Notes under the pieces: generated by a model
Database searches by the model: none
Told to the model about the DNA's origin: nothing
Seen by the model: the letters and a program-made list of their open reading frames with translations, nothing else
DNA from: an unicellular cyanobacterium SU3
GTDB taxonomy: Bacteria; Cyanobacteriota; Cyanobacteriia; Cyanobacteriales; Microcystaceae
Direction of reading: 5' to 3'
Assembly: GCA_002172675.1 (NCBI GenBank)
Contig: NETF01000171.1
Location: 1-53,005, forward strand
Length of the DNA stretch: 53,005 nucleotides
Part shown: positions 6,409 to 9,953 of the stretch, one piece after another
Position numbering within the stretch: position 1 is the stretch's first letter
Layout: every line of letters begins with the position of its first letter
Translations under genes and position numbers: made by a program

Positions 6409-6987
6409 ATGGTAGACAATCGTAAATCAACAGTAGTGATCACAGGAGCCTCATCAGGAGTAGGCTTGTACGCTACTAAAGCCCTAGCGGATAGAGGTTG
6501 GTACGTCGTTATGGCTTGTCGTAATCAACCGAAAGCCCACCAAGCAGCCCAGTCTGTCGGTATCCCTTTAGACAGCTATACGGTGATGAACATCGACTTA
6601 GGCAATCTAGACAGTGTACGACAGTTTGTTAAAGATTTTCGTGCCACTGGCAAATCTGTAGACGCTTTGGTGTGTAATGCAGCCATTTATATGCCTTTAC
6701 TCAAAGAACCCCTACGGAGTCCAGAAGGCTATGAATTAAGTATGACAACCAATCATTTAGGGCATTTCCTCCTCTGTAATCTAATGTTAAAGGATTTGCA
6801 AAGGTCATCTGCTCCTGAAAAGCGTGTGGTCATTTTAGGAACCGTTACCCACAACCCCAATGAATTAGGGGGCAAAATTCCACCCCGTCCCGACTTAGGC
6901 AACTTAGAAGGGTTTGCCGATGGCTTTAAAGAACCTGTTTCGATGATTAATGGTCAGAAGTTTGAACCAGTTAAGGCTTATAAAGAT
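6409..6987 (+). CDS. por: Light-dependent protochlorophyllide oxidoreductase (LPOR), exon 1
   Basis: First 193 codons of the light- and NADPH-dependent enzyme that reduces protochlorophyllide to chlorophyllide at the thylakoid. Seen are the Rossmann nucleotide site TGASSGVG (about 12-19), the NAG-type segment [10 protein letters not shown], and [11 protein letters not shown]. The exon ends in AYKD, which is the first half of the catalytic YKDSK motif. The ATG at 6409 has a GGGAG ribosome site; an upstream in-frame TTG is less likely. Joining to exon 2 gives 321 residues, the usual cyanobacterial length. Without splicing, translation runs into the intron and stops at a TGA after VRLVA, leaving a product that lacks the catalytic Lys. 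Confidence 0.95.
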
Positions 6988-7684
6988 GTGCGACTCGTTG
7001 CTTGAGAAAGTTAACCACCAATAGTGGATAACGTATCAAGCGTTGACTTAGGAAACGGTCAAATTTACAAAACTAAATAAAAGTTGAGTAGAAATTACCG
7101 AACAAACTAAGTAGGGATTACCGAAAAGTAAAACATACCCTAAGTTAATAACTGTTAGTTAGTTATCTAAAGGAGATAAAACACGGAGTCAAAGGGGTTC
7201 ACCCCTAAGTGTTACGGCAAAGTCCACAATTTGTGAATTAGTAACCCACGGATTGAAGCTGGACTTAACGGAATGTGAGACTTAAACAGAAGTCAAATCA
7301 TCTCTTAGCCAATTGGTCATGGTTAGCGAAAGCGAACCGTCAAACTGAACCTTCGTGAAAGCGATGTAGCGAAAACTGTTTGACACGCTGCGTTCAAAAA
7401 AGAACACAGATGAAAAGTAGAGGGATGTCTGACCCATCTACACCGACTCCTAAAAGTAACTCGGAGGATAGACGGAACCTAAAACCAATACACCCTAACT
7501 AACGGAACGAGTAAACTCCATAGATTCTCTCACCAAAAGGTCGAAACGGTGAGTAGTGACAAACTGAAGCGCAAGGTCTATGGAAGTGAGATGAGGAAAG
7601 AAGCCAAAGCCTAACTGTAATGGTTATGGATATGCTGACGTTCCTCGGTTTACCCAGAAGAAATAGTCTCTAGTAGTAATTAAA

Positions 7685-9484
7685 ATGTCAAAAGCGAGTT
7701 TCAAGACTACGAATGAATGGAAGAACATAAACTGGGCAAAAGTCCAGCGTAAAGTCTTCAAGTTACAAAAAAGAATATTTCAAGCGGTTAAGTCGGGACA
7801 AAAAGCTAAAGCTAGAAACTTCCAAAAACTCCTAATGAAGTCACATTATGCAAAGCTCTTAAGTGTCAGGAAAGTAACCCAAGATAATCGTGGGAAGAGA
7901 ACCGCAGGAATAGATGGACAACTAATTGTCAATCCCCAACAACGCGAAGAACTTGCCAAAGAATTAATCACAGAAGGGTATAAATCTAAGCCACTAAGAA
8001 GGGTATGGATTCCAAAACCAGGTAAAGACGAAAAACGTCCCCTAGGAATACCAACCATCAAAGACAGAGCAATGCAAACTTTGGTTAAACTGACATTGGA
8101 ACCTTATTGGGAAGCCCAATTTGAAGGAACATCATACGGTTTCAGGCCAGGCAGGTCAGCACATGACGCAATACAAAGGATATTCGCAACTATCAGGATA
8201 AAACCTAGATACGTTCTGGATGCCGATATTGCTAAGTGTTTTGACCAAATTAACCATAAATATCTACTCTCCAAACTAGAATGTCCAAACAATCTCAAAC
8301 AACTGGTCAAACAATGGCTAAAAGCAGGGGTCATGGACAACGGCATATTTGAAAAAACAGAGAAAGGAACCCCTCAAGGAGGAACAATATCACCTCTGTT
8401 AGCAAACATCGCATTGGATGGAATGATTAGGGATGTAAGTAACTCATTTCCTGAATCCTATTACAAAAATGGGAGACAAATAAGTAACAATAAACCCAAA
8501 ATCATCAGATATGCCGATGACTTCGTAGTTCTACATAATGAGTTACAAGTTATTCAACAATGCAAAGAATTGATTTCACAATGGTTAAGCAAAGTAGGGT
8601 TAGAGTTAAAACCAGAAAAAACCCGAATATGCCATACTCTAAATGAGATGGAAATAAACGGGGTAAAAGTTCAACCTGGTTTCGACTTCCTTGGATTCAA
8701 TATACGGACATACCACGTAGGTAAACACCATGGGTTTAAAGCACACCACGGTAAAAAAGTAGAAGTAATGGAATTCAAAACCCTCATAAAACCCAGTGAA
8801 AAATCAATCAAAGCTCACCGCGAGGAACTAAAAAGAATAGTTCAAAAGAACAAAAAAGCCCCTCAAGCGGTTCTCATAAACGAAATCAACCCAGTAATCA
8901 TAGGATGGTGTAACTACTACAAAACAGTTAGTAGCCATGAAACCTTTGAATCCTTAATTTACTATATGTGGATTTTGCTGAGAGCATGGACAGTAAGCAG
9001 AACAGGTCATGCAGGTTACGAGAAACTTAGAAAATACTTTTCCTATGGAAAAATAGGTCATTGGACATTCCAGACAAAGGACAAATACTCCCTTTACTAC
9101 CATTCCAAGACCAAAATTGTAAGACACGCACTCGTTAAACCAGAAGCCTCACCATATGACGGAAACTGGACATATTGGAGTACAAGAATGGGTAAGTATC
9201 CAGAAACTCCCACTAGAGTATCAAAACTCATGGTGAAACAAAAAGGGTACTGTAACCACTGTCATCAAAGCTTTATGCCTACCGATATTGTAGAAATTGA
9301 CCACATAATCCCCAAGTCACTAGGCGGAAAGGATGAATACAACAATCTACAGTTATTACATCGGCACTGTCACGATACTAAAACAAGCAATGATGGAAGC
9401 CTCAATAGGGCTGACACACTCCCAGATAATTATTATTGGGGAGATGATATGCTCATAACCGCCCCTATGACAAAGGGAAAGTAA
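7685..9484 (+). CDS. ltrA: Group II intron-encoded reverse transcriptase/maturase with HNH endonuclease domain
   Basis: A 599-residue intron protein needed for splicing and retrohoming of the host intron. The N-terminal RT0-RT7 region includes RRVWIPKPGK, GIPTIKDRAMQ, YGFRPGRSAHDAI, a QGGTISPLLANI block and the catalytic YADD at about 276-279. The maturase X domain follows (about 370-480). The C-terminus carries a zinc-type HNH endonuclease with CNHCHQSF, EIDHIIPKSLGG and LLHRHCHD. All domains appear intact. ltrA is the generic name for such proteins. The gene starts at an ATG about 700 bases into the intron and stops just before domain V. Confidence 0.95.
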   Translation: MSKASFKTTNEWKNINWAKVQRKVFKLQKRIFQAVKSGQKAKARNFQKLLMKSHYAKLLSVRKVTQDNRGKRTAGIDGQLIVNPQQREELAKELITEGYKSKPLRRVWIPKPGKDEKRPLGIPTIKDRAMQTLVKLTLEPYWEAQFEGTSYGFRPGRSAHDAIQRIFATIRIKPRYVLDADIAKCFDQINHKYLLSKLECPNNLKQLVKQWLKAGVMDNGIFEKTEKGTPQGGTISPLLANIALDGMIRDVSNSFPESYYKNGRQISNNKPKIIRYADDFVVLHNELQVIQQCKELISQWLSKVGLELKPEKTRICHTLNEMEINGVKVQPGFDFLGFNIRTYHVGKHHGFKAHHGKKVEVMEFKTLIKPSEKSIKAHREELKRIVQKNKKAPQAVLINEINPVIIGWCNYYKTVSSHETFESLIYYMWILLRAWTVSRTGHAGYEKLRKYFSYGKIGHWTFQTKDKYSLYYHSKTKIVRHALVKPEASPYDGNWTYWSTRMGKYPETPTRVSKLMVKQKGYCNHCHQSFMPTDIVEIDHIIPKSLGGKDEYNNLQLLHRHCHDTKTSNDGSLNRADTLPDNYYWGDDMLITAPMTKGK

Positions 9485-9489
9485 ACTAG

Positions 9490-9566
9490 GAGCCGTGTGA
9501 CGCGAAAGTATCATGCACGGTTTTGAATGGGAGTTGTGATAGGTAACTATCACTTCGACCCCTAAT
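9490..9566 (+). ncRNA. Group II intron domains V and VI
   Basis: Domain V is 9490-9523, with GAGCCG pairing to CGGTTT. Domain VI follows, with stem GTGATAG/CTATCAC closed by GTAA and a lower GGG/CCC stem. The unpaired A at 9558 is the likely branch point. The intron ends CCTAAT directly before the AGT AAA codons of por exon 2. Confidence 0.9.
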
Positions 9567-9953
9567 AGTAAAGTCTGTAATGTTCTGACCATGCGAGAAC
9601 TTCATCGACGCTTTCATGATGAAACAGGGATTGTGTTTACCTCTCTTTATCCAGGATGTGTAGCTGATACTCCTTTATTCCGTAACCATTATCCCCTCTT
9701 TCAAAAAATATTCCCTTGGTTCCAGAAGAATATTACAGGGGGTTATGTTTCCCAAGAATTAGCCGGGGAACGGGTAGCCGATGTAGTTACCAAACCCGAA
9801 TATGGTCAATCTGGGTCTTATTGGAGTTGGGGAAATCGTCAGAAAAAAGACCGTAAAGCAGCTTTTGTTCAGAAGGTGTCACCCCAAGCTCAAGATGAAG
9901 CGAAAGCAGAACGGATGTGGGAACTAAGTGAGAAATTAGTCGGACTTGTTTAA
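9567..9953 (+). CDS. por: Light-dependent protochlorophyllide oxidoreductase (LPOR), exon 2
   Basis: The C-terminal 128 codons of LPOR, in frame with exon 1 after intron removal. The first codons give SKVCN, completing YKDSKVCN with the catalytic Lys195 (Tyr191 lies in exon 1). The rest contains the conserved [16 protein letters not shown] and YWSWGNRQ blocks and the ending SEKLVGLV. This half cannot act alone because the nucleotide-binding part is in exon 1. Confidence 0.95.

Follow-up and report, generated by a model that had tools for sequence, protein, structure and literature searches.

The por gene of the unicellular cyanobacterium SU3 is interrupted by a group II intron that falls inside the catalytic motif of its product, the photosynthesis enzyme LPOR. 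How is such an insertion kept, and does the enzyme depend on its removal? We analyzed a window of 53,005 nucleotides, the whole of contig NETF01000171.1 (C171 in our numbering), which belongs to a 5.60-Mb assembly in 208 contigs (G000). A second carrier was found in the metagenome-assembled genome Crocosphaera sp. MO_192.B18 (G013, 85% complete; por record JASJDW010000334.1, locus L083). Including these two, nine genomes of the genus were compared, the others being G010, G011, G012, G014, G015, G016 and G017. The genus name Crocosphaera is probably appropriate for the window as well, judging from its kinship with MO_192.B18.

Structure of the split por gene

Three features of the + strand define the gene and the consequence of leaving the intron in place:

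6409..6987, + strand: por exon 1, 193 codons, ending in VKAYKD with the catalytic Tyr (TIGR01289, 304 bits)
6988..7005, + strand: predicted continuation of the exon 1 frame past the junction, VRLVA then stop, adding five residues to give 198 aa (same in L083)
9567..9953, + strand: por exon 2, 128 codons plus stop, starting with SK and the catalytic Lys (TIGR01289, 218 bits)

Translation placed the intron between AYKD and SKVCN, within the YxxxK motif. When the exons were joined, the resulting 321 aa scored 536.3 bits against the LPOR profile TIGR01289 (cut-off 331.35), and the best match among solved proteins was Thermosynechococcus elongatus POR (residues 2-320, 498 bits), with AYKDSK intact. 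By profile and YxxxK motif, the predicted joined product is a full LPOR. The first-pass annotation had stated that por is split inside YxxxK and that exact removal of the intron restores a 321-residue protein; the junctions proved right to the base. Its statement that the unspliced product would be without the catalytic Lys also held, as the frame stops five residues into the intron and the predicted product of unspliced por RNA contains the Tyr of the motif and not the Lys. We think that the position between two catalytic residues has no mechanistic meaning of its own, because a protein that loses exon 2 would be inactive whatever the insertion point. The most fitting view is that the intron landed in a stretch of high conservation.

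The intron and its protein

The intron itself comprises the following elements:

6988..9566, + strand: group II intron, 2,579 nt, placed by the D5-D6 match, by empty sites in relatives and by the same base in L083
7685..9484, + strand: intron-encoded protein (IEP), 599 aa, with RVT_N, RVT_1 (YADD), GIIM maturase and HNH domains
9488..9566, + strand: domains V and VI, RF00029, 48.6 bits (gathering threshold 40), the match ending exactly at 9566

The 5′ end, GTGCGAC at 6988, fits GUGYG, and the 3′ end is AAT. Domains V-VI folded with a z-score of -3.57, domain V having a GAAA loop and a two-base bulge, and the D5-D6 match was found in both carriers (48.6 bits in G000 and 50.8 bits in G013). The IEP frame was intact and scored 352 bits against TIGR04416 (cut-off 300); its closest solved relative was 6me0 (331 bits, residues 7-575), which we take to be the T. 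elongatus TeI4h intron protein. The element probably belongs to the mobile group II introns, chloroplast-like (CL) and of the IIB type, its cyanobacterial kin and the 6me0 match pointing to CL2 and the IIB subclass. It has been reported that CL2 introns are almost exclusively cyanobacterial (PMC4424553). Insertion was precise and left no target duplication: empty sites in G010, G011 (two copies), G014, G015 and G017 aligned with the joined exons with zero bases gained or lost, and these empty sites ruled out a misplaced junction. A promoter and terminator scan of positions 6000-10100 gave nothing usable, with 8 promoter-like hits (9.8 in shuffles, sd 2.9) and 5 terminator-like hits (3.5, sd 1.7).

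Occurrence of the intron in relatives

The same intron was present at the same base in G013, where its 5′ RNA part was 92% and its 3′ part 98% identical to that of the window. Empty sites in close relatives, which the first-pass annotation proposed to look for, were also found: por was detected in 7 of the 9 genomes of the genus, two filled (G000 and G013) and five empty (G010, G011, G014, G015 and G017). G012 (89% complete) and G016 (91%) gave no por match and were left out of the empty-site count. In G011, two open and divergent por genes were observed, both intron-free (L076 906-1871; L077 3821-4792).

At the family level, exon 1 matched in 42 of 50 genomes, with 43 rows at E<=1e-60. The frame was open over at least 319 aa in every row but the ones from the two carriers, G000 and G013, and the G013 row lay at the end of its contig. 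The junction pattern was found in 2 of 388 sampled genomes of the order, again the two carriers. When exon 2 was used as a query, 365 of the 388 matched, and among the 150 matches listed two frames were shorter than 322 aa (136 and 135) by a count made by eye, those of the same two genomes. A stricter pattern matched 1 of 386 genomes of the phylum, in a list without G013; the looser order pattern gives the better count, the phylum pattern being too bound to the letters of its own intron.

Predicted exon recognition

It has been reported that IIB introns recognize their exons through guides EBS1, EBS2 and EBS3 (PMC2882425). We took 19 related introns, aligned their 5′ regions and looked for the segment with the best pairing to the 5′ exon of the same intron. 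For this purpose 24 loci were inspected and five (L084, L136, L137, L139 and L143) were dropped for want of a fitting intron start; two candidate starts existed in each of L087 and L145, and the choice between them was made by eye. Two guides were predicted from the covariation:

7427..7432, + strand: predicted EBS1, GTCTGA; partner IBS1 at 6982-6987; 4 of 6 pairs
7359..7364, + strand: predicted EBS2, AAGCGA; partner IBS2 at 6974-6979; 4 of 6 pairs

The EBS1 column averaged 4.79 of 6 pairs, with at least 5 pairs in 12 of the 19 introns. With G-U counted as half, pairing with the own exon was 4.42 of 6 at both columns versus 2.23 and 2.43 with the exons of the other introns. The EBS2 register failed in some relatives (1 of 6 in L088, 0 of 6 in L135). 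In por, the four EBS1 pairs adjoin the splice site and include one G-U, and the EBS1 letters were the same in both carriers. Within the 760 nt at the 5′ end of the intron, neither carrier had a perfect IBS1 complement (RTYTTT). Combined EBS1 and EBS2 totals ranged from 5 to 12 over the 19 introns (median 10), with 8 of 12 for por in G000 and 9 in G013. Pairing as good as that of por was found at 4,552 of 105,982 window positions (4.3%), and within por two positions outscored the actual site and others tied with it (sorted place 16 of 952). The predicted guide pairing is compatible with the por site but modest.

These data bear on the earlier suggestion that highly conserved codons made por a safe homing site. 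The conservation of the stretch stood; the rest of the suggestion fitted less well, since five of the seven por-bearing genomes of the genus lack the intron, the junction pattern is limited to two of the 388 sampled order genomes, the carriers are not sisters (see below), and the pairing of 8 of 12 compares with a median of 10.

History of the insertion

In an unrooted tree of the ABC1 kinase from six genomes of the genus, G000 grouped with G010 (support 100) and G013 with G014 (91), so the two carriers cannot be sisters. G010 and G014 are both empty. G015, also empty, was at least as near to G000 by por, and it was not placed in the ABC1 tree as its contig ends before that gene. The por-exon tree was poorly supported, and gain and loss were considered without it. 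The intron would be either ancestral and lost at least twice, or moved. Between the carriers, dS was 0.49 (0.39-0.61) for the IEP, 0.82 (0.67-0.98) for the ABC1 kinase and 0.71 (0.53-0.95) for por, so that the IEP value lay below that of the kinase and overlapped that of por. The IEP value leans toward transfer after the species split, with unequal synonymous rates as the alternative. When the two carriers were compared, the flanks of the site gave no signal of co-conversion.

LPOR copy number and DPOR as a possible backup

The first-pass annotation regarded a second, uninterrupted por as evidence against dependence on splicing. No second LPOR was found in a search of the G000 genome. The next best candidate was an SDR paralogue (L003 1498-2454 on contig C59, 318 aa), whose best NCBIfam match was LPOR at 148 bits, far under the cut-off of 331, and which has TPGLMPGT where LPOR has YPGCVADT; it was rejected as a second por. 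The light-independent genes, which had been proposed as a backup if intact, were all open, with no stops and scores above cut-off (chlB 795, chlN 665 and chlL 479 bits). Leptolyngbya boryana has been reported to require LPOR in air and high light, its DPOR serving mainly in low light or at microoxic levels of no more than about 3% oxygen (PMC4500134). If this pattern holds here, failed splicing would be costly in bright, aerated water.

Selection and the case for splicing

Comparison of the carriers indicated purifying selection on both the intron protein and the gene. For the IEP, dN was 0.073 and dS 0.49 (dN/dS 0.15, bootstrap 95% 0.11-0.21); dN/dS was 0.074 (0.04-0.12) over the 239 shared por codons and about 0.07 for exon 2 alone (dN 0.053, dS 0.723). 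As exon 2 serves LPOR only once spliced, and a dead intron should allow it to drift, this constraint on maturase and exon 2, the strongest of the present lines of evidence, argues that the intron splices. The argument holds if the intron was in por for much of the interval; with a late gain in one carrier, the exon record would be partly pre-insertion. Exon 2 also contains an ATG-started frame of its own (9591-9953 in the ORF list), and a fragment could in principle arise from it without splicing. The earlier claim that the enzyme depends on splicing is suggested by the same selection on exon 2 and maturase.

The best explanation, which we consider very probable, is that the por intron is retained because it is spliced out, with LPOR dependent on splicing and DPOR as a partial backup. 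A mobile chloroplast-like group II intron would have entered por in Crocosphaera and been kept since it is spliced. Its cis-encoded maturase would aid folding of the ribozyme, EBS1 and EBS2 would bind the codons that close exon 1, and branching and exon ligation would then yield an ordinary LPOR mRNA. LPOR production would in this way depend on splicing, and DPOR (chlLNB) would partly stand in at low light or low oxygen.

A further possibility, in line with the first-pass suggestion that chlorophyll synthesis could be coupled to maturase activity or stress, is that splicing is the rate-limiting step and regulates LPOR. The modest pairing and identical EBS1 letters in both carriers would fit such a role, as would the dS of 0.49 between the intron copies and the state of the G013 maturase. 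The latter was open (616 aa), with 18 residues in place of the Arg before PLGIP, a net gain of 17 residues or 51 bases (L083 1384-1436). This insertion is in-frame and hairpin-forming and lies in the RT domain at a conserved motif, where Arg preceded PLGIP in 47 of the 50 occurrences scanned, G013 being among the three exceptions; judged from the MAG sequence, RT activity is probably impaired. A search of 20 of the approximately 380 G013 contigs (312,666 bases) and of the other loci examined gave no second copy that would point to a dispersed repeat as its source. However, G010 and G014, which group with each carrier, are intron-free, so the intron is not needed for LPOR control in the genus, and regulation through splicing seems unlikely. 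A more specific version is doubtful: the intron may have been domesticated as an LPOR valve, the modest pairing and constant EBS1 making splicing and LPOR output follow maturase activity, and the damaged RT with a preserved maturase frame in G013 marking a step toward a splicing-only, organelle-type intron.

It is quite improbable that the por intron splices poorly or never and that por is dying, with chlorophyll supplied by DPOR. Such decay would agree with the open chlL, chlN and chlB, with guide pairing under the family median and with a somewhat raised dN/dS on the G000 por branch (three-taxon estimate: dN 0.018/dS 0.191, versus 0.012/0.414 for G010 and 0.013/0.287 for G015), but each carrier has two open, conserved exons, the constraint on exon 2 and on the open maturase is as described above, and LPOR is reported as essential under bright, aerated conditions in L. 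boryana (PMC4500134). Least probable is that polyploid cells retain some intron-free por and that the insertion is cheap: polyploidy has been proposed as a reason why introns are tolerated in essential cyanobacterial genes (PMC8919778), and a 208-contig assembly could conceal minor alleles, but the genome search yielded the split por alone and the same allele occurs in a second species.

Comparison with known introns

The por intron is a known kind of intron in an unusual host gene. It resembles the T. elongatus TeI4-kind introns in its closest solved IEP (6me0) and, by prediction, in recognition through EBS guides, and differs from them in that it interrupts a conserved gene, which its predicted guides match modestly. 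For Geobacillus kaustophilus, Chee and Takami reportedly described in 2005 a group II intron in recA, which likewise interrupts a housekeeping gene but differs in phylum and gene. Group II introns in cyanobacterial housekeeping genes are also known (PMC4424553). In Trichodesmium erythraeum, another cyanobacterium with interrupted conserved coding genes, splicing of 17 introns has been documented in vivo (PMC4649490); the introns there involve other host genes and include a twintron and ORF-less introns, whereas por has a single intron that encodes its own maturase. A literature search, which reached few subscription papers, gave no report of an intron in a cyanobacterial por. If spliced as proposed, the por intron would be a naturally occurring example of a free-living cyanobacterium in which a photosynthesis enzyme relies on a group II intron, a dependence described as typical of organelles and not of bacteria (PMC4424553). 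With two carriers, five empty-site genomes and a backup enzyme, the cost and control of the intron are directly testable.

Related introns in the genus

The IEP search of G000 returned 17 rows, including that of the por intron itself; of the 16 further rows, some were fragments. Among these, the closest long IEPs were 51-52% identical over residues 1-570 and the closest fragments 60-64%; with such identities, the por intron was not copied recently from another intron of this assembly. IEPs 65-68% identical were found in G010, G013, G015 and G017. Many IEP rows of the genus were partial or contained stops (some perhaps at contig ends), and the IEP of the por intron was intact in G000. More than 100 open codons led up to the junction in 5 of the 19 introns used above, namely por (twice), a DUF3386 gene (L145), a DUF2887 gene (L091) and an IS605 OrfB transposase gene (L146); the other 14 had at most 70, with a long open frame downstream in L089 and L135. 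The L145 intron of G015 follows 132 open codons of the DUF3386 gene (L145 366-761) and apparently interrupts it, which, from the upstream part seen, would make it a second conserved-gene intron in the genus. At the same threshold, G017 gave 42 IEP matches, many of them partial, versus one each in G014 and G016, indicating a strong intron expansion in that genome.
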